In this document: positions 7,495 to 62,452 of the stretch, piece by piece | How the letters are laid out: every line of letters starts with the position of its first letter | Numbering within the stretch: the stretch's first letter is position 1 | From: Naasia sp. SYSU D00057 | GTDB taxonomy: Bacteria > Actinomycetota > Actinomycetes > Actinomycetales > Microbacteriaceae | Direction of reading: 5' to 3' | Assembly: GCF_017916505.1 (NCBI RefSeq) | Contig: NZ_JAFMSZ010000002.1 | Span: 558,001-622,000 of the forward strand | Length of the DNA stretch: 64,000 bases | Made by a program: the position numbers and the translations under genes | Notes under the pieces: model-generated | Told to the model about the DNA's origin: nothing | The model's input: only the letters and a program-made list of their open reading frames with translations | The model's database searches: none

Positions 7495-8411
7495 GACTGC
7501 CTCTCCGCCGCGCGGGCGACGAACCTACTGCCGACGATGACGATGAGCGAGATCACGATGCCCACCATCCCGATGGCGGCGGCGACGCCGAGCTGCTTCG
7601 CGTCGAACGCCTCCGCGTAGAGGTCGATGACGAGCGTCCGAGTGGTGCCGAGCGGGCCGCCGCGGGTCATCAGCCAGATCAGCTCGAACCGCCGCAGCGA
7701 CCAGATGGTCATGAGGACGGCCACGAGCCCGATCGTGGGCTTGAGGACCTGGAAGGTGACCTCTCGGAACACCGTCCACCGGCCGGCCCCGTCCACCTGG
7801 GCGGCTTCGACCAGCTCCTGCGGCACGGACTGCAGGGCGGACAGGAGCACGACCGCGACGAACGGCACCAGCTGCCAGATCGTGGTGGCGAGCACGGCGA
7901 TCAGCGCGAGGCTCGGATTGTCGAGCACGCCGCTCGCACCCGGGTCGATGCCGACCGCCTGAAGCGCCTTGGTGAGGATCCCGTACTGGGCGTTGAACAT
8001 CCAGGTGGCGATGAGCGCGACCGCGATGCCCGGTGCCGCCCACGGCACGGTGACCAGGGCCCGCGCCACGCCGCGGCCCGGGAAGCGTCCGTTGAGGAGC
8101 AGCGCGACGAGCAGGCCCAATCCGACGGAGCCGGCCACGCACGCGACGACGTAGACGAGGGTCGTGACCAGGGTCTGCCGGAACGACGGGTCGGTGAAGA
8201 TGTCGAGATAGTTCTCCGCCCCGACCCACACGCTCCTCGTGGGATTGAGGAGGGTGGTCCTGGTGAAGCTCAGCCACACCTCCTGGAGGAGGGGAAGGCC
8301 CTGGAACACCAGGATGTACAGCGCGGCGGGGGCGAGGAAGAGGTAGGGCGTCCACCTGCTCTCGAGCGTCCGCCGCCTGCCCGGCCGGGCAGGTGAGGTA
8401 GTTGCAGACAT
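7491..8411 (-). CDS. Carbohydrate ABC transporter permease (MalF family)
   Basis: 306 residues with a cytoplasmic basic N-terminus (about 25 residues including GRRRTLESRWTP) and six membrane segments. The EAA loop is ELVEAAQVDGAGRWTVFREV. This is the upstream permease of the sugar-acid importer. It is separated from the binding-protein gene by a 53-bp gap that holds a strong hairpin (8426-8453), which would favour more binding protein than permease. Confidence 0.9.
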   Translation of the reverse strand: MSATTSPARPGRRRTLESRWTPYLFLAPAALYILVFQGLPLLQEVWLSFTRTTLLNPTRSVWVGAENYLDIFTDPSFRQTLVTTLVYVVACVAGSVGLGLLVALLLNGRFPGRGVARALVTVPWAAPGIAVALIATWMFNAQYGILTKALQAVGIDPGASGVLDNPSLALIAVLATTIWQLVPFVAVVLLSALQSVPQELVEAAQVDGAGRWTVFREVTFQVLKPTIGLVAVLMTIWSLRRFELIWLMTRGGPLGTTRTLVIDLYAEAFDAKQLGVAAAIGMVGIVISLIVIVGSRFVARAAERQS

Positions 8412-54334: not shown

Positions 54335-55711
54335 TCAGGCGGTGGGGCGAGCGACCCAGCCGACGAGGCTGCCGTCGTCCCAGATGCTGCGCTCCCGGAC
54401 GTTCTTGCCCGCAGACGGGGCCTCGATCATCATGCCGCCGCCGGTGTAGATGGCGACGTGGTACATGTCGTATCCGGACGTCCAGAACAGCAGGTCGCCG
54501 GGCTGCTTCTGCGAGAAGGGCACCAGCTGGCCGCGCGCCTTCGCGGTGTTGTACTGGTTCGTCGCCGAATGCGTGCCGATGCTGACCCCGGCCGCGCGAT
54601 AGGCCATCAGGGTGAGGCCCGAGCAGTCCCAGCGGTCGGGGCCCGCCCCGTTCAGCTGGTAGGGCTCGCCGATCTGCGACCGGGCGTAGGAGATGGCGGT
54701 GGCGACGGCGCTCGGCGACGGGTTTCCGACGGGAGCCGGTGCGGGCGGAGCCGGAGCCGGAGCAGGTGCGGGCGCCGCGGGCGCGGGGGCAGCAGGAGCA
54801 GACGCCGCCGGAGCGGGTGCGGCCGGCGCGGGCGCTGTGCCGCCGCCGCTCGTGCCGCCGCCGGTGTTCGACCCGCCGTTCGTGCCGCCGGATCCGCCAC
54901 CCCTGGGCGCGCTCGGCGCCGGCGCGGACGCGGACACCTGGCTCTGCCGCTCCTCGGCGAGGCTGCGCCGGTAGGCGGCCTCCGCCTCGGCGGTCGTGTC
55001 CTTGAGGGTCGCGAGCTGGGCGAGCAGCTCGCCCTGCCGGGCCTCCTGCTCGGCGAGGGCCGCCTGAGCCCCACTTGCGGCGCTGTTCGCCGCGGTGAGC
55101 GCCTTCTCGGCGTCCGTCGCGACCCGCTGCAGCTCGGCCTTCGCGCTCTCGGCCTGCTCGCGCAGGGACGTGGCGAGGTTCCGGTCGGCGAGGGCGGCCG
55201 CGTAGATGGTCGCCGACTGCTCGGACAGCTTGCCCATGGCGCTCAGCTGGTAGAGCAGGCCGTCCGAGTCGCCGTCGAGCGAGAGGGTGAGCCCCAGGTC
55301 GGCGCCGACGGAGCGCGACAGGTGCGCCGCGAGCAGGCCTGCCCGCATCTTGGAGACCTTCGCGCGCTCCTCGGCATCGGCGGCGCTCCCGGCCAGCTCC
55401 TCGGCGCGCGTCGTGGCGACGGAGAGGGCGTCCTGGGCGATGCGGTACTGCTCGTCCGCGATGGCCTGCTGCCGGGACGCGTCGGCGGCGGCCGTCTCGA
55501 GCCCCGTGAGGAGCGCGTCGAGGGCGTCGATCTCGGCCTGCTTGGTGGCCTCGTTCCCCTTCGCGTCCTGGATCTCATCCCAGGTCGGGTAGTCGGGGCT
55601 CGCCTGCGCCGACACGGCACCGACGGATGCGGTGACCGCGCCGATCGCGACCGCCGACAGGGCGACCTCGGGCCGGAGACGCCGGCGCCGCAGGAAGCGG
55701 CGCTCAGCCAA
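54335..55711 (-). CDS. Secreted NlpC/P60 cell-wall endopeptidase with coiled coil
   Basis: 458 residues. A basic start (MAERRFLRRRRLRPE) and hydrophobic segment form a signal peptide ending near SAQASPDY. About 45-255 is a long coiled coil, then an Ala/Pro-rich linker and a C-terminal NlpC/P60 domain with Cys in DRWDCSGLTLMAY and His in MYHVAIYTGGG. It should cleave peptidoglycan peptides, as RipA-type enzymes do at division. The start is TTG at 55711, lying 8 nt inside the end of the M23 gene, so translation is coupled. Confidence 0.88.
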   Translation of the reverse strand: MAERRFLRRRRLRPEVALSAVAIGAVTASVGAVSAQASPDYPTWDEIQDAKGNEATKQAEIDALDALLTGLETAAADASRQQAIADEQYRIAQDALSVATTRAEELAGSAADAEERAKVSKMRAGLLAAHLSRSVGADLGLTLSLDGDSDGLLYQLSAMGKLSEQSATIYAAALADRNLATSLREQAESAKAELQRVATDAEKALTAANSAASGAQAALAEQEARQGELLAQLATLKDTTAEAEAAYRRSLAEERQSQVSASAPAPSAPRGGGSGGTNGGSNTGGGTSGGGTAPAPAAPAPAASAPAAPAPAAPAPAPAPAPPAPAPVGNPSPSAVATAISYARSQIGEPYQLNGAGPDRWDCSGLTLMAYRAAGVSIGTHSATNQYNTAKARGQLVPFSQKQPGDLLFWTSGYDMYHVAIYTGGGMMIEAPSAGKNVRERSIWDDGSLVGWVARPTA

Positions 55712-56954
55712 GTGCGGCGCCGCGGTCGCGCATGAACGGCTGGGCGTCGATCGCGCTGCCGTTGATCCGCACCTCGAAGTGCAGGTGGCAGCCGGTGGAG
55801 GCGCCCGTGGAGCCGACGGCGGCGATGACCTCGCCCGCGTCGACGCGCTGCCCGGAGCGGACGTAGGTGGCGCCGTCGCGGATGTGCGCGTAGCCGGTCG
55901 TCACCCCGTCGCCGTGGCTGATCTCGACCCAGTTGCCGTAGGTGCCGAGCGGGCCGGCGTACTTCACGGTCCCGCTGGTGGCGGCGTAGATGTTGGAGCC
56001 GCAGCTCGCGGCGATGTCCGTGCCGCGGTGGATGAGGTTGGCGCCGGCCGGCTGTCCGGGGCGGTAGCCGTAGGTTCCGCTGATCCAGCCGTAGGCGGGC
56101 TTCGCCCAGCCCTGTGAGCTCAGCTGGCCGCCGTCGCGGGGGCCCCCTGCGTTCGCGGCCGCCGCCGCGCGTGCGGCTGCCGCCGCGGCCTCCGCCGCCT
56201 TGCGCTTCGCCTCGACGCCCGCCTCGTACTCGGCGGTGGTCTTGGCGGTGACGTCCTGCAGGGCGGCGAGCTGCTGCTCGAGCACGATGTTGAGCTCCTG
56301 CTGGTCGGCGAGCTCCTGCTGGGCCGCCTCGCTCGCGGCGATCGCCTCCTGCAGCTTCTGCTCGGCCTCGACGCGGAGCTTCTCGCGCTCGTCTCGGGCG
56401 ACGGCCGCCTGGTCGGTGAGGGACTGCGCCGTGTTCTGAGCGGCGAGCGCGTTCGCGTAGACGCCGTCGTTGATCTGGGCGAGCTTGCTGGCCGAACCGA
56501 GGCGGGCGAGCAGCTCGTCGGCGCCACCGCCGTCCTCGAGGAACATGCCGGCGGTCAGCTCGGCGCTGCCGCCGGAGCGGTAGAGCTGGGCGGCGAGGAG
56601 GCCGGCGCGGGCGTTGGCGGCCTCGGCGTCGGCCTTGCTCTGCTCGGCCTGGGTCTGGAGGTTGTTGGCCCGGAAGTCGGCCGCGTCGAACGCGTTCTGC
56701 GCGACCTGGTACTCGGCGCCCCGCTCCTCGGCTATGGCCTGGGTCTGCTCGACCCGGGCCTGGGCGGCGGCGATGAGCCCCTGGATGCGGGCGATCTCGG
56801 CCTGCTTGGCCTGCTCGTTCTCGCGGGCGGCGAGCACGTCGCTCCAGGAGGGATACTCGACGGCCCAGGCGGGCGACGCGATCCCGAGCACGACGGCGGC
56901 GACGAGGACAGCGACAGCCGCCACGAAGCGGCGCAGGAAGGCAGGAATGCGCAC
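55704..56954 (-). CDS. Secreted M23-family (LytM/lysostaphin-like) peptidase with coiled coil
   Basis: 416 residues. Signal peptide RIPAFLRRFVAAVAVLVAAV ending near SPAWAVEY, then a coiled coil over about 35-275 that parallels the next gene, and a C-terminal M23 domain with HRGTDIAASC and GCHLHFEVRIN zinc-binding motifs, which look complete. The GTG at 56954 is chosen because GGGGGGTGATC lies upstream; the longer frame runs into tRNA genes. With the NlpC/P60 gene it forms a two-gene cell-wall remodelling operon. Confidence 0.88.
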   Translation of the reverse strand: MRIPAFLRRFVAAVAVLVAAVVLGIASPAWAVEYPSWSDVLAARENEQAKQAEIARIQGLIAAAQARVEQTQAIAEERGAEYQVAQNAFDAADFRANNLQTQAEQSKADAEAANARAGLLAAQLYRSGGSAELTAGMFLEDGGGADELLARLGSASKLAQINDGVYANALAAQNTAQSLTDQAAVARDEREKLRVEAEQKLQEAIAASEAAQQELADQQELNIVLEQQLAALQDVTAKTTAEYEAGVEAKRKAAEAAAAAARAAAAANAGGPRDGGQLSSQGWAKPAYGWISGTYGYRPGQPAGANLIHRGTDIAASCGSNIYAATSGTVKYAGPLGTYGNWVEISHGDGVTTGYAHIRDGATYVRSGQRVDAGEVIAAVGSTGASTGCHLHFEVRINGSAIDAQPFMRDRGAALG

Positions 56955-57065
56955 GCCGATCACCCCCCGCCTTCCATCAAACCTCGAACCAGCACTTGAA
57001 GGTAACCCCCGTTCGCGGGGTGCCGCCACTCGACCCCCGGCGTGCCGCCCGTCCCGCCGGCGCCC

Positions 57066-57135
57066 TCGCCGCGGGAGAAGCGATCTCGCCGCGGGCGTTG
57101 TTTCCCTGGCCGGGAGGCTGTTTCGCCCGCGGCGA
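57066..57135. repeat. Intergenic word cluster (TCGCCGCGGGCG) upstream of tRNA genes
   Basis: TCGCCGCGGGCG (57086-57097) is the exact inverse complement of CGCCCGCGGCGA (57124-57135), and a direct partial copy lies at 57066-57075. It is in the 261-bp gap between the M23 gene start and tRNA-Glu, which otherwise holds only promoter elements. Confidence 0.65.
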
Positions 57136-57156
57136 CGACAGTGAGGGCGGCTCGTG

Positions 57157-57206
57157 TTGGAGGAGTGTCCGGAGTGCCGTATGCTTGTCGACCGTTGAGT
57201 TCTCAA
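57157..57206 (+). promoter_or_regulatory. Promoter and leader motif of the tRNA cluster
   Basis: TTGGAG (57157-57162) and TATGCT (57180-57185) are 17 bp apart. Downstream, GTTGAGTTCTCAAC at about 57194-57207 is a palindrome of the kind seen in actinobacterial rRNA leaders, immediately before tRNA-Glu. Confidence 0.65.
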
Positions 57207-57215
57207 CTGGGATTC

Positions 57216-57288
57216 GGCCCCATCGTCTAGTGGCCTAGGACGGCGCCCTTTCACGGCGCTAACACGGGTTCGAATCCCGTTGGGGTCA
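57216..57288 (+). tRNA. tRNA-Glu (anticodon TTC)
   Basis: 73 nt. Acceptor GGCCCCA/TGGGGTC with one G-T pair, anticodon loop CTTTCAC, T-arm CGGGTTCGAATCCCG, discriminator A. CCA is not encoded. First of three tandem tRNA genes. Confidence 0.95.
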
Positions 57289-57318
57289 CGAGGCCCTAGA
57301 CTGGAACTCAACAAGCAA

Positions 57319-57435: not shown

Positions 57436-57508
57436 GGCTCTGTAGCTCAGTTGGTAGAGCGCACGACTGAAAATCGTGAGGTCACGGGATCGACGCCCGT
57501 CGGAGCCA
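57436..57508 (+). tRNA. tRNA-Phe (anticodon GAA), integration target
   Basis: 73 nt. Acceptor GGCTCTG/CGGAGCC, anticodon stem-loop CGACTGAAAATCG giving GAA, T-arm ACGGGATCGACGCCCGT with A at the first T-loop position. Its last 39 bases plus one form the left attachment repeat of the element, so the gene is kept intact. Confidence 0.95.
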
Positions 57509-57509
57509 C
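57470..57509. other. attL: 40-bp direct repeat at the 3' end of tRNA-Phe
   Basis: The 40 bp starting AAAATCGTGAGGTCACGG and ending CGTCGGAGCCAC are identical to 62413-62452. The repeat runs from the anticodon loop to one base past the tRNA, the usual site for tyrosine integrases of actinomycete elements. Confidence 0.92.
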
Positions 57510-57511
57510 AA

Positions 57512-58498
57512 TCAAATTCCCAGGTGGGAGCCCGAATCTGCGGGTGACTCACCCCCTCCCAGTTGACTGTCCGACTGCGAGAAGAAGTTCGACAACAGCG
57601 GGCCACCTCGACGCGCCGCCTCTCGGCGAGTGTCGGCATACATCTGCGTCACAAGCAGCGTGGAGTGCCCCAACAGTGCCTGGACGTCGGGAGCAGGCAG
57701 TCCCGCACGGAAGAAGAAGACCGCGGCGGTGTGCCTGAGGTCGTGCCAGTGCAGCGGCGGCTCGCCGGGTGCAAAGGTCTTCACCTGATCGCGCCACTGG
57801 TGCCAATTCAGCGCGCGGCTGAGGTTCTTCGAGTTGATGAACCCGCCGCGCGGGCCGGCGAACAAGTAGTCGTGCTGCCCTTTGCCTTCTGCCGCCTCGC
57901 GGAGGATCGGCTCGAGCTGGGTGATCACAGGTACAACCCTGAGTCGCCGCCCCTTGGTCGGCCCGACGCGACCATTCGTGACGGTGCGTGCGACCAGCAG
58001 GGTGCGCCCCTCCCAATCCACGTCAGACAGTCGCAGGCCGGCAATCTCGCCTAAACGGCACCCGGTGTACGGCATTGCGAGCACGAATCGGCGATACGGC
58101 CCCGACGCGGGCAGAAGCGCGCGCAGGCGATCGAATTCCTCGAGGCTCAGCGCCCGCCCGGCCACGTCCGCGGCCTGCTCGCGGCGGCGCTCCACGCCAT
58201 GACACGGGTTCGACGCGATGTAGCCCCCTTTGACGGCCACCGCACAGAGGGACGAGAGCACGCTCAGAGCGTCCCCACGCGTCGATTCGCCCCCCGTCCA
58301 CGAGGCAAACGCCACTTCCACGTCGAGAGTCGTCAGCGACCCAACAGGCAGGTGCGCGAGCGACGGCGCCACACGCTTGCCCCAGGCGTACCGATAACCG
58401 CGCTGTGTCGAGTCCGCGAGCTTCCGGAGGACCACGCCGTTATAGCGCTCCCAAAGGACGCTGAGCGGCGTCGACGGATCGGGAACAGGGAGGGTCAT
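57512..58498 (-). CDS. Tyrosine recombinase / integrase of the tRNA-Phe element
   Basis: 328 residues. N-terminal SAM-like core-binding domain (about 10-100) and catalytic domain with Arg148 (TGCRLGEI), Lys182 (PTKGRRLRVV), His252-x2-Arg255 (HWHDLRHTA), His278 (LLGHST) and the nucleophile Tyr287 (TQMYAD). All active-site residues are present. It should recombine attP with the tRNA-Phe end. Its stop is 3 bp from the attL repeat. The start at 58498 is divergent from the HTH gene. Confidence 0.95.
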   Translation of the reverse strand: MTLPVPDPSTPLSVLWERYNGVVLRKLADSTQRGYRYAWGKRVAPSLAHLPVGSLTTLDVEVAFASWTGGESTRGDALSVLSSLCAVAVKGGYIASNPCHGVERRREQAADVAGRALSLEEFDRLRALLPASGPYRRFVLAMPYTGCRLGEIAGLRLSDVDWEGRTLLVARTVTNGRVGPTKGRRLRVVPVITQLEPILREAAEGKGQHDYLFAGPRGGFINSKNLSRALNWHQWRDQVKTFAPGEPPLHWHDLRHTAAVFFFRAGLPAPDVQALLGHSTLLVTQMYADTRREAARRGGPLLSNFFSQSDSQLGGGESPADSGSHLGI

Positions 58499-58592
58499 GT
58501 TCCGACCCTACACTGCTTGTTCCTTTTCGGATGTCTCTGTATGCGTTCGCTATCGCCGTACTACTGTCGCCGATCCTCACTACCCTGGCGAC

Positions 58593-59006
58593 ATGAGCGG
58601 CAACAACGACGAGGCGACGGACAGTGAGGGCGCGGCGGATCGTCTGCTCGCCGACGTGGGAATCCACGACATCGGGCAACGACTCATCGACCTGGGCGAG
58701 CAGCTGGTTGCAATCGGGCGGCACACCGACAGCGCGAAGCTCCGCGAACACATCTCCACCGCCGACGAAGTCGGGGTCGACGCCGTCTGGGACGAGGTTG
58801 ACCGAGAGATGACGACTGCTATCCGCCGGACGCTGAGTGGACTGGGCGCCTTCCGAAAGGAGTACGCCAACTGGGAGCGGCTGACCGTTGAGTACGCGCT
58901 CTCTCGCAGGAACTTCACCCAGCGCGACGTGGCACAGCTACTCGGTGTTGGATTGACCACGGTGAATCGGTGGGCTCAGCACCCGCTCACCCACGACCAG
59001 GACTGA
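58593..59006 (+). CDS. Small helix-turn-helix protein of the element
   Basis: 137 residues: an acidic N-terminal half of helices (DRLLADVGIHDIGQRLIDLG, DAVWDEVDREMTTAIRRTLS) and a C-terminal helix-turn-helix, FTQRDVAQLLGVGLTTVNRW. Probably a DNA-binding regulator of the integrase or cargo, or an excisionase-like factor; nothing distinguishes these. It is divergent from the integrase (95-bp gap) and convergent with the OLD-like gene. The start ATG at 58593 is preferred to an upstream in-frame start inside the integrase region. Confidence 0.7.
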   Translation: MSGNNDEATDSEGAADRLLADVGIHDIGQRLIDLGEQLVAIGRHTDSAKLREHISTADEVGVDAVWDEVDREMTTAIRRTLSGLGAFRKEYANWERLTVEYALSRRNFTQRDVAQLLGVGLTTVNRWAQHPLTHDQD

Positions 59007-59033
59007 CCCTCTCCCGAAATTTCCCCTACAGGA

Positions 59034-60944
59034 TCAAGAGAGCGTCGCGTTGAGCGCCACAAACAGTGCCTCGAAGTTGTCCAGAGTCGCCGCGCTGAAC
59101 TTGCCGGTCACCTTGTCGCGGTTCCGCAGCAGGTAGTCGGCCGGCTTGCCATGGTCTGTGAAGTCCGCACCCTTGAGCCGCCCAATCCGCGCGACGATCC
59201 TGTCCGTGCCGTTCAGCGCCGATACCTTCACCGAGTCCCCGAACGCTCCGTTGTAGAGCACCAGGTAGTCGCCGGGGGTGAACAGATCTTCAATATCTGA
59301 CCCGGAAACGCTCGTGAACTGGTCAGTCAGCAACACCCGCTTGTTCGCCAGGTAACCCCTCGCCGCGAGATCAGAAACCTTGGCCACACTCGACTTCGTG
59401 CTGCCGTCCACAAGCACCGTTACATCGAGCGCACGCCCGATGAGAGCTACGAAGGTTGGGATGTTGGAAGCGCCCCCCACAGGCAAGACCCGCCAGCGTT
59501 CGTCCAAGGACGGCCTACCCGCATCGCGAAGGACATCGCTAAGCACCTGGATGTACGTGTAGTCACTGGTGCCCTCGACTAGTAGGTTGTCTGGCCCGAC
59601 GAAGAGGTTCTGCGCGATGTCGTAACCGAGTGCCGCCTGTAGCGGAAACAGCGAGTCCGACCCGACGGTGAGAGCCTCCTCGGAGACCACGGAACCAAGC
59701 TTGGACCCCTTGTCCTCGACAATCCGGACGCGTTGCAACTGGGCCGAGTCAACCATGAAGGGCGAATGCGTCGAGTAGACGACCTGCGCTGTCTTCGCGA
59801 GTTCGTCCTCGATGTAGCGCAAGTAGTCCGCCTGCGCTCGACCATGCAACGTGAGGGCAGGCTCGTCTAGCAGCACCACCACTCCATGCTCGTAGCCCTC
59901 AAACTCGCTGAACGCGGCGAGGAAACTGAAAAACCACCTGAAACCGCTCGAGCGCTGCGAGAAGTTGTTAGTGAAGCCATGCCGCGCATCTCGCACGCGA
60001 ATGTCCAGGAACCGCACGACCGCGACTTGCCCATGCGGATGCGTCTTCGTCTCCTTATCCGCCTGGATCTGGATGCTCAGGTCCGCGTTCTGCTGCCAGT
60101 ACTGGAAGACCCGCTCGGTGAGTTCATTGCTCACGGCTTCCAGCTCGGCAGTTCGTTCCTCAAAGTCCTCGTCGGTCAGCGAACTGGCGTCGGTGTAGGC
60201 GAGCTTCAGGAGCGCGCGGGCGGTTTGGAGGTCCGACTGCCCGGGCTCCTCGTTGCCCGCAAGCTCGGTCACGTTGATCCGCCCCGGGAGGGTCTGGTAG
60301 TCGGCGAAGTAGAACATCTTCGGAAGACGCGAGACAAGCAAGGCTGCCACGGCGCCCTCGGTGTTTTTCCCACCAGTCCGCGCCGTCACCGCTGTGGAGA
60401 GCTCAGTTCGGTCCGTCTCAGTCCAGCCGGCTTCCTCGTCGGGAGCCGGCAGCGACTTCAACGCCCCCGCAACATTGCCTAGTAGCTTCTGAGTCTCGGT
60501 GAGCTGCTCCAGGAGCGCATTCGGCGTTCCGACCTCCTCGACGACATTGTTGAACGCCGCAGCAGCGTCGACGTCCACGGAGTACTTTGCAGGCAGGTTG
60601 TAGTACCGCTCGACGACAAGCGTCGTCCCGGTCAAGACGTTCGAGCCAAACGCGGTTTCTACGGCCGCCCTGTCGTCGTCCTCGATCATGAACTCGGCAC
60701 GTACGACCGGGTCCGCGTCGATCACGCCTCCTCGACGGTCAGTGACAAGTCGCCAACGTGGATAGTGCTGGCTCTCATTGAAATCCGCCTCATGGACCGG
60801 ATTCACCCGATAGAGCGCCTCGAGGATCGCGCTCTTGCCGCTCTCGTTCTTACCCACCAGAGCCGAAATCGCCGGGTCGAAATTGATCGAACCCGAGTCG
60901 AGAACATTCTTGAACTTTCGCACGCGGGCGACAAAGAGACGCAT
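59034..60944 (-). CDS. OLD-family-like ATPase with TOPRIM domain (candidate defence nuclease)
   Basis: 636 residues. SMC/ABC-type ATPase: Walker A GKNESGKS (31-38), signature-like SQRSSGF (329-335), Walker B VVVLLDEP with Asp360-Glu361, switch His393 (YSTHSPF). About 450-560 is a TOPRIM-like part: Glu457 in LLVEGTSDY, Asp513 in VLVDGSTKS and Glu552-Asp553 in SDIEDLF. The usual DxD is Asp-Gly-Ser here. No UvrD/GajB-like helicase follows, so it is a class-1-type stand-alone protein rather than Gabija. Family members cut DNA or block phage growth; activity here is inferred. Start ATG 60944; a frame to 61055 is open but unsupported. Confidence 0.8.
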   Translation of the reverse strand: MRLFVARVRKFKNVLDSGSINFDPAISALVGKNESGKSAILEALYRVNPVHEADFNESQHYPRWRLVTDRRGGVIDADPVVRAEFMIEDDDRAAVETAFGSNVLTGTTLVVERYYNLPAKYSVDVDAAAAFNNVVEEVGTPNALLEQLTETQKLLGNVAGALKSLPAPDEEAGWTETDRTELSTAVTARTGGKNTEGAVAALLVSRLPKMFYFADYQTLPGRINVTELAGNEEPGQSDLQTARALLKLAYTDASSLTDEDFEERTAELEAVSNELTERVFQYWQQNADLSIQIQADKETKTHPHGQVAVVRFLDIRVRDARHGFTNNFSQRSSGFRWFFSFLAAFSEFEGYEHGVVVLLDEPALTLHGRAQADYLRYIEDELAKTAQVVYSTHSPFMVDSAQLQRVRIVEDKGSKLGSVVSEEALTVGSDSLFPLQAALGYDIAQNLFVGPDNLLVEGTSDYTYIQVLSDVLRDAGRPSLDERWRVLPVGGASNIPTFVALIGRALDVTVLVDGSTKSSVAKVSDLAARGYLANKRVLLTDQFTSVSGSDIEDLFTPGDYLVLYNGAFGDSVKVSALNGTDRIVARIGRLKGADFTDHGKPADYLLRNRDKVTGKFSAATLDNFEALFVALNATLS

Positions 60945-61046
60945 CCGCCCATTCTGGCAGTACCGCGGGGCGCGACCATCAAGCAGCGGGCGGGACACAC
61001 GTGGCCGGGCGCCCCACCGAAGCCGCCAGCATCGCCCCTCCGCTCC

Positions 61047-61108
61047 GGGCGTCAACCCTGCTGCGCATCCGTCGGACTGCGGGGTTGACGCCCTCCGCTC
61101 ACGGAGCG
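61047..61108. other. Two adjacent hairpins in the element's longest non-coding gap
   Basis: GGGCGTCAACCC (61047-61058) pairs perfectly with GGGTTGACGCCC (61082-61093) over a 23-nt loop, followed at once by CCGCT-CACGG-AGCGG (61094-61108). They lie in the 212-bp gap between the OLD-like and six-Cys genes. They could be a terminator for the rep-side genes, a promoter operator for the OLD-like gene, or a rolling-circle origin structure for Rep. Confidence 0.5.
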
Positions 61109-61156
61109 GTGCCTCTGGCTATCGGTGGGATGCCCTCGTTAGCGGCGCAGCTGTCG

Positions 61157-61297
61157 TCATACGTCGAGCAGGCAGGCCCCGCACAGCTCACGGCCGGCGG
61201 GGCTGGCCTCCAGGTGTTCCCGGAAGGCGACGTTTCCGCACACGTCGCAGGTGCGGTAGCCCATCAACTCGCACGTCCCACAATCAGCAGCAGCCAT
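61157..61297 (-). CDS. Six-cysteine zinc-ribbon-like small protein of the element (46 aa)
   Basis: 46 residues: MAAADCGTCELMGYRTCDVC then GNVAFREHLEASPAGRELCG and ACLLDV. Three CxxC knuckles (C6/C9, C17/C20, C39/C42) suggest zinc binding. GAGGGGGTGATC lies upstream of the ATG at 61297, a good ribosome-binding site. It starts 23 bp beyond the rep stop on the same strand, so is probably co-transcribed with rep. Role unknown; regulator or Rep accessory is possible. Confidence 0.7.
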   Translation of the reverse strand: MAAADCGTCELMGYRTCDVCGNVAFREHLEASPAGRELCGACLLDV

Positions 61298-61320
61298 AAT
61301 CGATCACCCCCTCCCCTGAC

Positions 61321-62382
61321 TCAGGGCAGCACCGCAGAACGGGCCACATCGATCCGTCGCAACACGTCCGACCGGGCAGCATCAGCCCCGTCCTGACGCT
61401 CAGGCGCCGTCGCGGGCTCCGCCGCTCCCGCGGCTGCCGCCCGCGCCGCCACCCAAGCCGCACGGGACTCCCGCTGAGACCGCCGGGTCATCCCGGTGAA
61501 CGACCACCCCGACCGATGGCGAGTGCGCCGCGACGCGCTCACTACGTGCGAGCGGGATCCGTAGCGGTCGTGTACCCGGCTCGCACACTCATCCGGGTCG
61601 CAGTCGCGAGAGCAGCGGATCGCCCGCGCCGCCTGACCGAGGCGAGTCAAGTGCTCCCAGGCGAAATTGCTCCCTCGACCGGACATAGCCGCCAACGCGG
61701 TGTCCTTCATCACGTAGTTCAGCGCCTTCGACAGGTACCAAATCGTCTTCGCACCGTCGCCGTCCGCGCGGAACCGCTTTGCGTCCGCTTGGGGACCCCA
61801 GCCGACGCACGCACCGTCGACCGGCGATACCGCCTGCACCGTGCGAGCGACCTCGCGAAGCACCGCTGCCTCGGGCGCGCCCCCGCGGTCGATCCGGACG
61901 AGCGCGTGCAGGTGCAGGACGCCGCGGTCCTGCCACTCCCGGACCAGGAACAGCTCGACCGATGGCCACCAGTCGCGGAAGCGGCGGCGAGTGCGATCCC
62001 ACAGGACGCCCGCGTCCCGATTCCACGCCACCTGCCCGGCGTAGTCGTACGAATCCATGTCGAGCGGGACGCCGCGCAGCCCCGCATCACGGACGTCGTG
62101 CGTCGCCCCGCATCCGCACCGCTTCAGTCGTGCACCGGGTGACCGCGGCACCCGGTGCACGCGCCCGAAGGATGGCGCAGTGAGCGTAAGCAGGTAGAAG
62201 CGATACCGCGACACGTCCGCGTCGAAGACGCCCGAGCGCGCGATCGCTGCCCAGTCACCGCGATAGAGCTCCGCGCACGAGGGGCAGAGCGAGCGCACCC
62301 GCGACTGACACCGGACGAAGACACCCGACTTGAGTTTGTGCGGGCGAACACACCCGATAGGTACCGATTCGGCGGGCTCCAT
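61321..62382 (-). CDS. RepSA-like replication initiator (HUH rolling-circle type)
   Basis: 353 residues. N-terminal zinc-type region with RSLCPSCAELYRGDW (Cys33, Cys36), then LLTLTAPSFGRVH and SYDYAGQVAWNRDAGVLWDR, all typical of RepSA proteins of pSAM2-type actinomycete elements. The HUH pair is His157-Leu-His159 in GVLHLHALVRID, and candidate nicking tyrosines are in IWYLSKALNYVMKD (Tyr216, Tyr223). The basic C-terminus is low-complexity. The protein is shorter than RepSA (about 450 residues) but keeps the core. It starts 31 bp from attR. Confidence 0.85.
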   Translation of the reverse strand: MEPAESVPIGCVRPHKLKSGVFVRCQSRVRSLCPSCAELYRGDWAAIARSGVFDADVSRYRFYLLTLTAPSFGRVHRVPRSPGARLKRCGCGATHDVRDAGLRGVPLDMDSYDYAGQVAWNRDAGVLWDRTRRRFRDWWPSVELFLVREWQDRGVLHLHALVRIDRGGAPEAAVLREVARTVQAVSPVDGACVGWGPQADAKRFRADGDGAKTIWYLSKALNYVMKDTALAAMSGRGSNFAWEHLTRLGQAARAIRCSRDCDPDECASRVHDRYGSRSHVVSASRRTRHRSGWSFTGMTRRSQRESRAAWVAARAAAAGAAEPATAPERQDGADAARSDVLRRIDVARSAVLP

Positions 62383-62412
62383 AAGGAAGCCGCAGAGTCC
62401 GCAGCTCGCCTA

Positions 62413-62452
62413 AAAATCGTGAGGTCACGGGATCGACGCCCGTCGGAGCCAC
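62413..62452. other. attR: 40-bp copy of the tRNA-Phe 3' end
   Basis: Identical to 57470-57509. It lacks the 5' half of the tRNA, so it is not a gene. The base before and after differ from attL (A and C against G and A), which defines the repeat limits. Confidence 0.92.

Follow-up and report, generated by a model that had tools for sequence, protein, structure and literature searches.

We analyzed 64,000 nucleotides of the genome of Naasia sp. SYSU D00057 (contig NZ_JAFMSZ010000002.1, positions 558,001 to 622,000; hereafter the window), in which a tRNA-Phe gene is followed by a small element bounded by direct repeats. The two 40-bp repeat copies are exactly identical and spaced 4,943 bp apart; a simple composition model puts the number of 40-bp repeats arising by chance within 7 kb at about 6e-16. 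Five genes lie between them, encoding a tyrosine integrase (Int), a helix-turn-helix (HTH) protein, an OLD-like protein, a six-cysteine protein and a RepSA-like replication initiator (Rep). In window coordinates, the features are as follows.

57436-57509, plus strand: tRNA-Phe (gaa), the integration site, called by ARAGORN
57470-57509, plus strand: attachment (att) repeat, tRNA copy, forming the 3' end of tRNA-Phe
57512-58498, minus strand: tyrosine integrase P0002, 328 aa (Pfam Phage_integrase, 1.2e-21)
58593-59006, plus strand: HTH protein P0004, 137 aa (Pfam HTH matches, all under cut-off)
59012-59038, minus strand: 27-bp motif CTTGATCCTGTAGGGGAAATTTCGGGA, a probable double-strand origin with predicted nick CTTG^AT
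59034-60944, minus strand: OLD-like ATPase-TOPRIM protein P0001, 636 aa, the cargo (AAA_15, 5.8e-17; OLD-like_TOPRIM under cut-off)
59039-61004: cargo slot, the stretch not common to the closest relative, L052
61005-61157, minus strand: noncoding block left of the slot, in part common to L052, L053 and L060, with a strong fold
61157-61297, minus strand: six-Cys small protein P0005, 46 aa, without a Pfam family
61321-62382, minus strand: RepSA-like rolling-circle initiator P0003, 353 aa (Pfam RepSA PF20199, 5.9e-34)
62413-62452, plus strand: att repeat, distal copy

The exact repeat identity and the gene calls confirm the original prediction of a 40-bp direct repeat enclosing five genes, among them Int and Rep, which resemble those of actinomycete integrative and conjugative elements (AICEs) and which both proved intact. 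The same prediction held that transfer functions are missing and that the main cargo is of defense type; we likewise found no transfer gene in the element, and the OLD-like protein matches the defense proteins AriA and Old in PADLOC.

The tRNA-Phe region was recovered in seven of eight other genomes of the same genus, each carrying a single copy of the repeat core (up to 8 mismatches allowed, 11 kb read), which agrees with the expectation of single-copy sites in relatives; the eighth genome (G300, 68% complete) did not yield the region. L108 is a clean empty site, in which the window's right-hand neighbor gene lies about 0.16 kb past the tRNA; in the window this gene lies 0.12 kb past the end of the element. 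The neighbor gene is found 0.8 kb (L106) and 1.2 kb (L105) downstream of the tRNA in two further genomes, and was not found in the stretch read for the remaining four.

Rep occurs once in the window's genome. It scores 118 bits against PF20199 (cut-off 34) and falls below the NCBIfam RepSA equivalog (81 of 700 bits), and its profile found no match among solved structures. Residues H157, H159, Y223 and K226 are invariant across 16 sequences, and we take them to be the HxH and Tyr-x-x-Lys motifs of pC194-type initiators. Rep and Int are both open and, with dN/dS values of 0.14-0.21 in four pairs (rough, as dS exceeds 1), appear to be under purifying selection. P0004 has only weak matches, including an excisionase PHROG (0.00099), and has homologs in the equivalent position in five other elements; it may be a regulator or an excision factor.

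Searching the Microbacteriaceae for related Int-Rep elements, as the original prediction had proposed, returned a family of at least 17 elements with differing cargo; that prediction had missed the family, along with its common backbone, its cargo slot and its probable origin motif. Rep matched 18 of 299 genomes of the bacterial family at E 0.001, its own included, seven of these at 1e-130 or better, while Int relatives were present in 27 of the 299 (at 1e-30); a scan of genome contigs gave 13 loci with a Rep match. Rep-bearing relatives occur in Salinibacterium, Rhodoglobus, Pseudolysinimonas, Microbacterium and metagenome-assembled genomes of Microbacteriaceae, with one labelled Micrococcales only. 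The 17 comprise the window element, L052-L062, L065, L125, L126, L127 and L129; we kept apart L063 (Rep truncated at a contig end), L064 (a Rep fragment) and L069 (broken Rep and Int), as well as the more distant L066-L068, L070-L074 and L150-L155. Ten are integrated at tRNA-Phe and seven at tRNA-Met. Both att copies are seen in 16, L129 being a contig fragment; the copies are spaced 3.09-5.38 kb apart in 15 elements (5,144 bp in L052, counted to the inner att copy at 7931) and 8.96 kb apart in L126, and the least similar pairs are those of L053 (39/44) and L056 (40/44).

Read from the far att, the shared backbone runs Rep, six-Cys protein (detected after Rep in 11/17 elements), noncoding block, slot, motif, regulator, Int. 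In six elements (the window's, L052, L054, L055, L058 and L065) a reversed P0004-like gene takes the regulator position, and in nine (L053, L056, L059-L062, L125, L127 and L129) a gene for a 130-aa protein starting MADFR does so; L057 and L126 have neither, and no element has both. An unannotated 95-aa frame (L160:1876-2163) on NZ_CP014353.1, a free Acidipropionibacterium plasmid of 2,365 bp, is distantly related to the MADFR protein (31% over 78 aa, E 2e-5), overlapping there the end of a gene whose Rep_1 match is under cut-off. The presence of this frame on a plasmid suggests a role for the MADFR protein in plasmid replication control.

As CTTGATCTTGTATAGAARATTTCGGGAR, the 27-bp motif was found in all 17 elements, occurring once per element in the first 13 (up to 7 mismatches). 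The exact pattern is present in 13 of 398 Microbacteriaceae genomes, once in each, against none for a backward control, and every exact site falls inside a Rep-bearing element, four of which (L125, L126, L127 and L129) were newly revealed by it. Across the order it occurs in two of 396 genomes, both Microbacteriaceae, and in none of 362 genomes of other families. The motif was not found in L066-L074 (up to 7 mismatches), and the best matches in L150-L155 reach 15-19 of 27 positions; those in L152 and L154 contain CTTGAT and could be diverged versions. Over 15 elements, motif distance tracks Rep distance (r 0.45, p 0.0005) and is unrelated to Int distance (r 0.03, p 0.33), while Rep and Int distances are uncorrelated (r -0.06, p 0.71); motif and Rep go together, and the Int half is exchanged. 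Its conservation, its position and its co-variation with Rep make the motif a probable replication origin, with a predicted CTTG^AT nick region linked to an initiator that carries both pC194-type motifs. The nick region of pC194 agrees with CTTGAT (PMC5037232), and pSAM2 has been placed in the pC194 family (PMC3218068). A hairpin immediately upstream of the motif (stem of at least 5 in 8/17 elements versus 8% of random places) was set aside, since the window element lacks it, it could be a terminator, and the elements are relatives of one another. The stop codon of the window's OLD-like gene falls within the motif; a frame of at least 150 codons stops at the TGA of CTTGATC in 4/17 elements, but 15% of random places have one as long, and we make no claim from it.

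The motif also marks the right edge of a region in which cargo varies among otherwise similar elements. Between the window element and L052, similarity breaks at 61005 and returns at 59044. Among the listed pairs with a DNA alignment spanning the motif, similarity starts 0-17 bases upstream of it, and six pairs (for example L059-L062 and L053-L129) align for 1.6 kb from the motif onward. The left 1.5 kb of L057 and that of L059 show 91.5% identity, and the slots of the two are unrelated. On the left, 60995-61140 folds well as DNA (z -3.25, with 1/200 shuffles equally good), and a second, different block is common to L057, L059, L061, L062 and L065; the left block might conceivably contain a single-strand origin. 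The stricter rule that all cargo is confined to the slot was dropped, as L057, L061, L126 and L127 have genes right of the motif. In L057, a RhuM-Fic gene (L057:10653-12143) lies where its close relative L059 has regulator and Int.

In addition to P0001, 26 cargo proteins were scanned by Pfam and 20 of these by PADLOC, a subset of the open reading frames (ORFs). Seven of the 17 elements have a clear match to a defense family, three have a weaker one and six have cargo without a clear match, while L056 has no recognized cargo; several of the PADLOC names are those of candidate systems.

Window element: clear; AriA and Old (PADLOC)
L055: clear; GmrSD_N, NsnA (1.9e-53) and a HEPN protein
L057: clear; RhuM-Fic, PDC-S23 (9.6e-131), right of the motif
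L058: clear; AIPR (6.2e-30), AbiU
L059: clear; TIR-TM (2.7e-49)
L060: clear; HEC-01A (6.2e-91) with HEC-01B (4e-28)
L126: clear; Bse634I-type endonuclease and C5 methylase, a type II restriction-modification system
L052: weaker; DndB
L125: weaker; DzbB (1.5e-7)
L129: weaker; Mrr_cat (1.6e-10)
L053, L054, L061, L062, L065 and L127: cargo without a clear family match

The window's own cargo, P0001, has the ATPase of the OLD family (AAA_15, 62.8 bits, cut-off 32.1) and matches AriA at 4.5e-18 and Old at 3.9e-17. As in OLD family nucleases (6p74), an AAA ATPase precedes a region that may be TOPRIM-like, with no partner gene in the element; P0001 differs in being distant, aligning to the 6p74 structure at E 1e-6 over residues 350-511. 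E457, D461 and D513 are invariant among five homologous sequences. Full-length alignments extend to Streptomyces plasmid proteins (55%) and to proteins of Tomitella, an alphaproteobacterium and an archaeon; with homologs in hosts this distant, the gene has traveled well outside the element. Phages gave two weak matches. A single-sequence structure model was unusable (mean pLDDT 34). P0001 probably protects its host against phages or competing elements.

The criteria by which AICEs are recognized include att repeats and a tyrosine integrase at the 3' end of a tRNA and a RepSA, RepAM or Prim-pol initiator, all of which the window element has, an excisionase gene, for which the weakly matching P0004 is a candidate, and the transfer protein TraB. 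PF01580 (TraB/FtsK) was not found inside any of the 12 mini-elements in searched genomes, the window's genome (G000) included, and no above-cut-off match in these genomes fell in a frame shorter than 800 codons. By the same search it is present inside L066 (with one in-frame stop), L067, L068 and L073, and by Pfam TraB is also found in L150, L152 and L154. The remaining five of the 17 elements were assessed from their listed ORFs alone. L151, L153, L155, L070-L072 and L074 stand outside this assessment; L153 is from another family and ends at a contig end, and none of the ORFs listed for it is TraB-like. Because TraB was looked for and not found, we do not class the element as an AICE, although it works like that half of an AICE which integrates and replicates. 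The seven TraB-bearing relatives span 5.3-12.6 kb, and the idea that all of them are larger was dropped on account of L150 (5.3 kb); with TraB-bearing relatives this small, TraB and not size separates the groups. The claim that the element is smaller than described AICEs accordingly stands for those of one Streptomyces survey (11.9-36.3 kb; PMC9513070) and fails for the TraB-bearing relatives L150, L152, L154 and L067 (5.3-6.8 kb). L150, L152 and L154, at just 5.3-6.1 kb, come from other families of the order and lie at tRNA-Phe, tRNA-Pro and tRNA-Arg.

On the strength of these sequence comparisons, we consider it likely that the element is a transfer-gene-free integrative rolling-circle plasmid with a cargo slot, belonging to a Microbacteriaceae family of such elements. 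This reading rests on the exact att repeats, the single-copy sites in seven of eight same-genus genomes and the sixteen relatives at two tRNA genes; on a motif that is confined to Rep-bearing elements and co-varies with Rep; and on cargo that differs between similar elements, with no TraB in 12/12 and defense matches in 7/17 plus weaker ones in 3/17. Int would insert the element at the tRNA-Phe 3' end and would presumably also excise it, perhaps aided by the HTH protein; in other members, tRNA-Met is used by a related Int. The excised circle would be replicated by Rep nicking CTTG^AT within the motif, and new hosts might be reached through another element, through a phage or by uptake of DNA. 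The genes of the slot, which separates the Rep module from the motif, are replaced from one relative to another, often by antiviral-looking systems of one or two genes; the slot of the window element contains the OLD-like ATPase-nuclease.

Several observations weigh against this reading. Mobility, replication and defense are things that we infer. The element is rare, with its motif in the 13 genomes given above, and part of the family decays, since L057 lacks Int, which is found in the other 16 elements, and L064 and L069 are broken. The RhuM-Fic gene of L057 and the small genes of L061, L126 and L127 lie outside the slot, six elements have cargo of no clear family and one has none, and an enrichment of defense genes is our impression, the 7/17 and 3/17 counts standing without a background rate. 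The TOPRIM match of P0001 (21.6 bits) is below its cut-off of 23.2. Finally, in nine of 12 hosts, the window's among them, we found no FtsK gene of TraB size and no type IV secretion system (T4SS) coupling protein.

The elements could instead be mobilizable, carried along by a conjugative helper while Rep or the motif serves as transfer origin, a possibility to which we give limited credence. Rolling-circle initiators act as relaxases in some integrative and mobilizable elements (IMEs; PMC5704250), and T4SS coupling proteins were found in three of 12 hosts (G069, G075 and G317). A canonical IME, however, has its own Mob relaxase, and none of the window element's five proteins matches a relaxase family in Pfam; the nine hosts lacking both helper marks also speak against this explanation, though a helper need not stay. 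A second alternative, somewhat less probable, concerns the cargo, which might serve addiction, and thereby retention of the element, or exclusion of rival plasmids instead of phage defense. Restriction-modification and toxin-antitoxin systems have been discussed as addiction systems in IMEs (PMC5704250), and L126 carries a type II restriction-modification system, but the OLD-like gene is alone in the window element, and its full-length homologs on plasmids of other phyla have different neighbor genes.

It is unlikely, in our view, that these are phage satellites, excised and replicated upon infection and packaged by a helper phage, with cargo directed at competing phages. The original prediction had suggested a satellite-like carrier, a label that our results neither support nor refute. 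Small size, an integrase, a replication gene and defense cargo recall the Vibrionaceae phage-inducible chromosomal minimalist islands (PICMIs; PMC10803314), and few hosts show a conjugation helper. The PICMI set, however, is int, alpA and prim at fis, whereas the window element has int only, at tRNA-Phe, without a match to AlpA or primase. The integrase is the only phage-related gene recognized in it, the element has no DNA match to phages, and Rep relatives were found neither in 50,697 phage records nor in a scan of viral contigs based on two short peptide patterns. Least probable is a decayed, now immobile pSAM2-type AICE that lost its transfer genes. In favor of this, Rep and Int are of AICE type, TraB-bearing L066 and L150 occupy the same tRNA-Phe, AICE decay has been described (PMC9513070) and Frankia elements without tra or rep have been termed remnants or mobilizable elements (PMC3218068). 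Against it, 17 elements at two tRNA genes repeat one plan without Tra, Rep and Int appear to be maintained by selection, and the slot cargo continues to change.

The transfer-gene-free integrative plasmid that we favor shares with pSAM2-type AICEs the tyrosine integrase at a tRNA 3' end, the RepSA-type initiator, a (here probable) rolling-circle type origin and cargo that may include restriction-modification or AIPR genes, and differs in having no TraB (12 tested), a shorter Rep (about 350-380 aa) and a single cargo slot beside the motif (PMC3218068; PMC9513070). Four AICE-like elements of mixed defects are likewise missing a module, whereas here 17 share one tra-less plan, a comparison made by description only. 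We found no published description of such a family in the open-access literature, most subscription papers lying outside the search. More speculatively, such plasmids might form a mobile-element class of their own, carrying exchangeable antiviral genes that rolling-circle replication swaps between co-resident elements, one boundary of the swap lying at the nick site, though we regard this as doubtful. The breakpoints at the motif fit origin-driven exchange, and ordinary recombination in conserved flanks would look identical. In Staphylococcus, cassettes of double-strand origin, qacC and single-strand origin similarly place exchanged cargo next to the double-strand origin among conserved neighbors, but on free plasmids, whereas the present elements are integrated and their cargo varies widely (PMC5037232); the right side of that arrangement corresponds to the motif, and the left side only to a well-folding conserved block.

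Further observations concern the surroundings of these sites. Just beyond the far att of L125 (L125:5366-6105) lie fragments of a second MADFR-type regulator and Int, left over from an element that occupied this tRNA earlier. L052 has a third att-like copy (43/44) 3.5 kb past the element, and the interval (L052:4438-7931) encloses three reversed genes without Rep or Int, a possible tandem accretion. At tRNA-Phe in L064, a 53-bp att repeat (L064:7870-12653) surrounds unrelated genes and, of Rep, only a fragment with residues 11-55, as in a relic or a replaced element. In the window, two reversed genes ahead of the tRNA cluster (54335-57314) look by eye like NlpC/P60-like and M23-like secreted cell-wall hydrolases.

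TraB-based AICE screens such as that of PMC9513070 would miss these elements, which, if they move, are very small carriers of defense genes. The position of the slot lets candidate antiviral genes be listed, including the cargo without a clear family in six elements. Whether gene exchange is promoted by rolling-circle origins, as has been proposed for qacC (PMC5037232), could be tested naturally in these elements, and their existence raises anew the question of how an element may spread without a transfer gene of its own.

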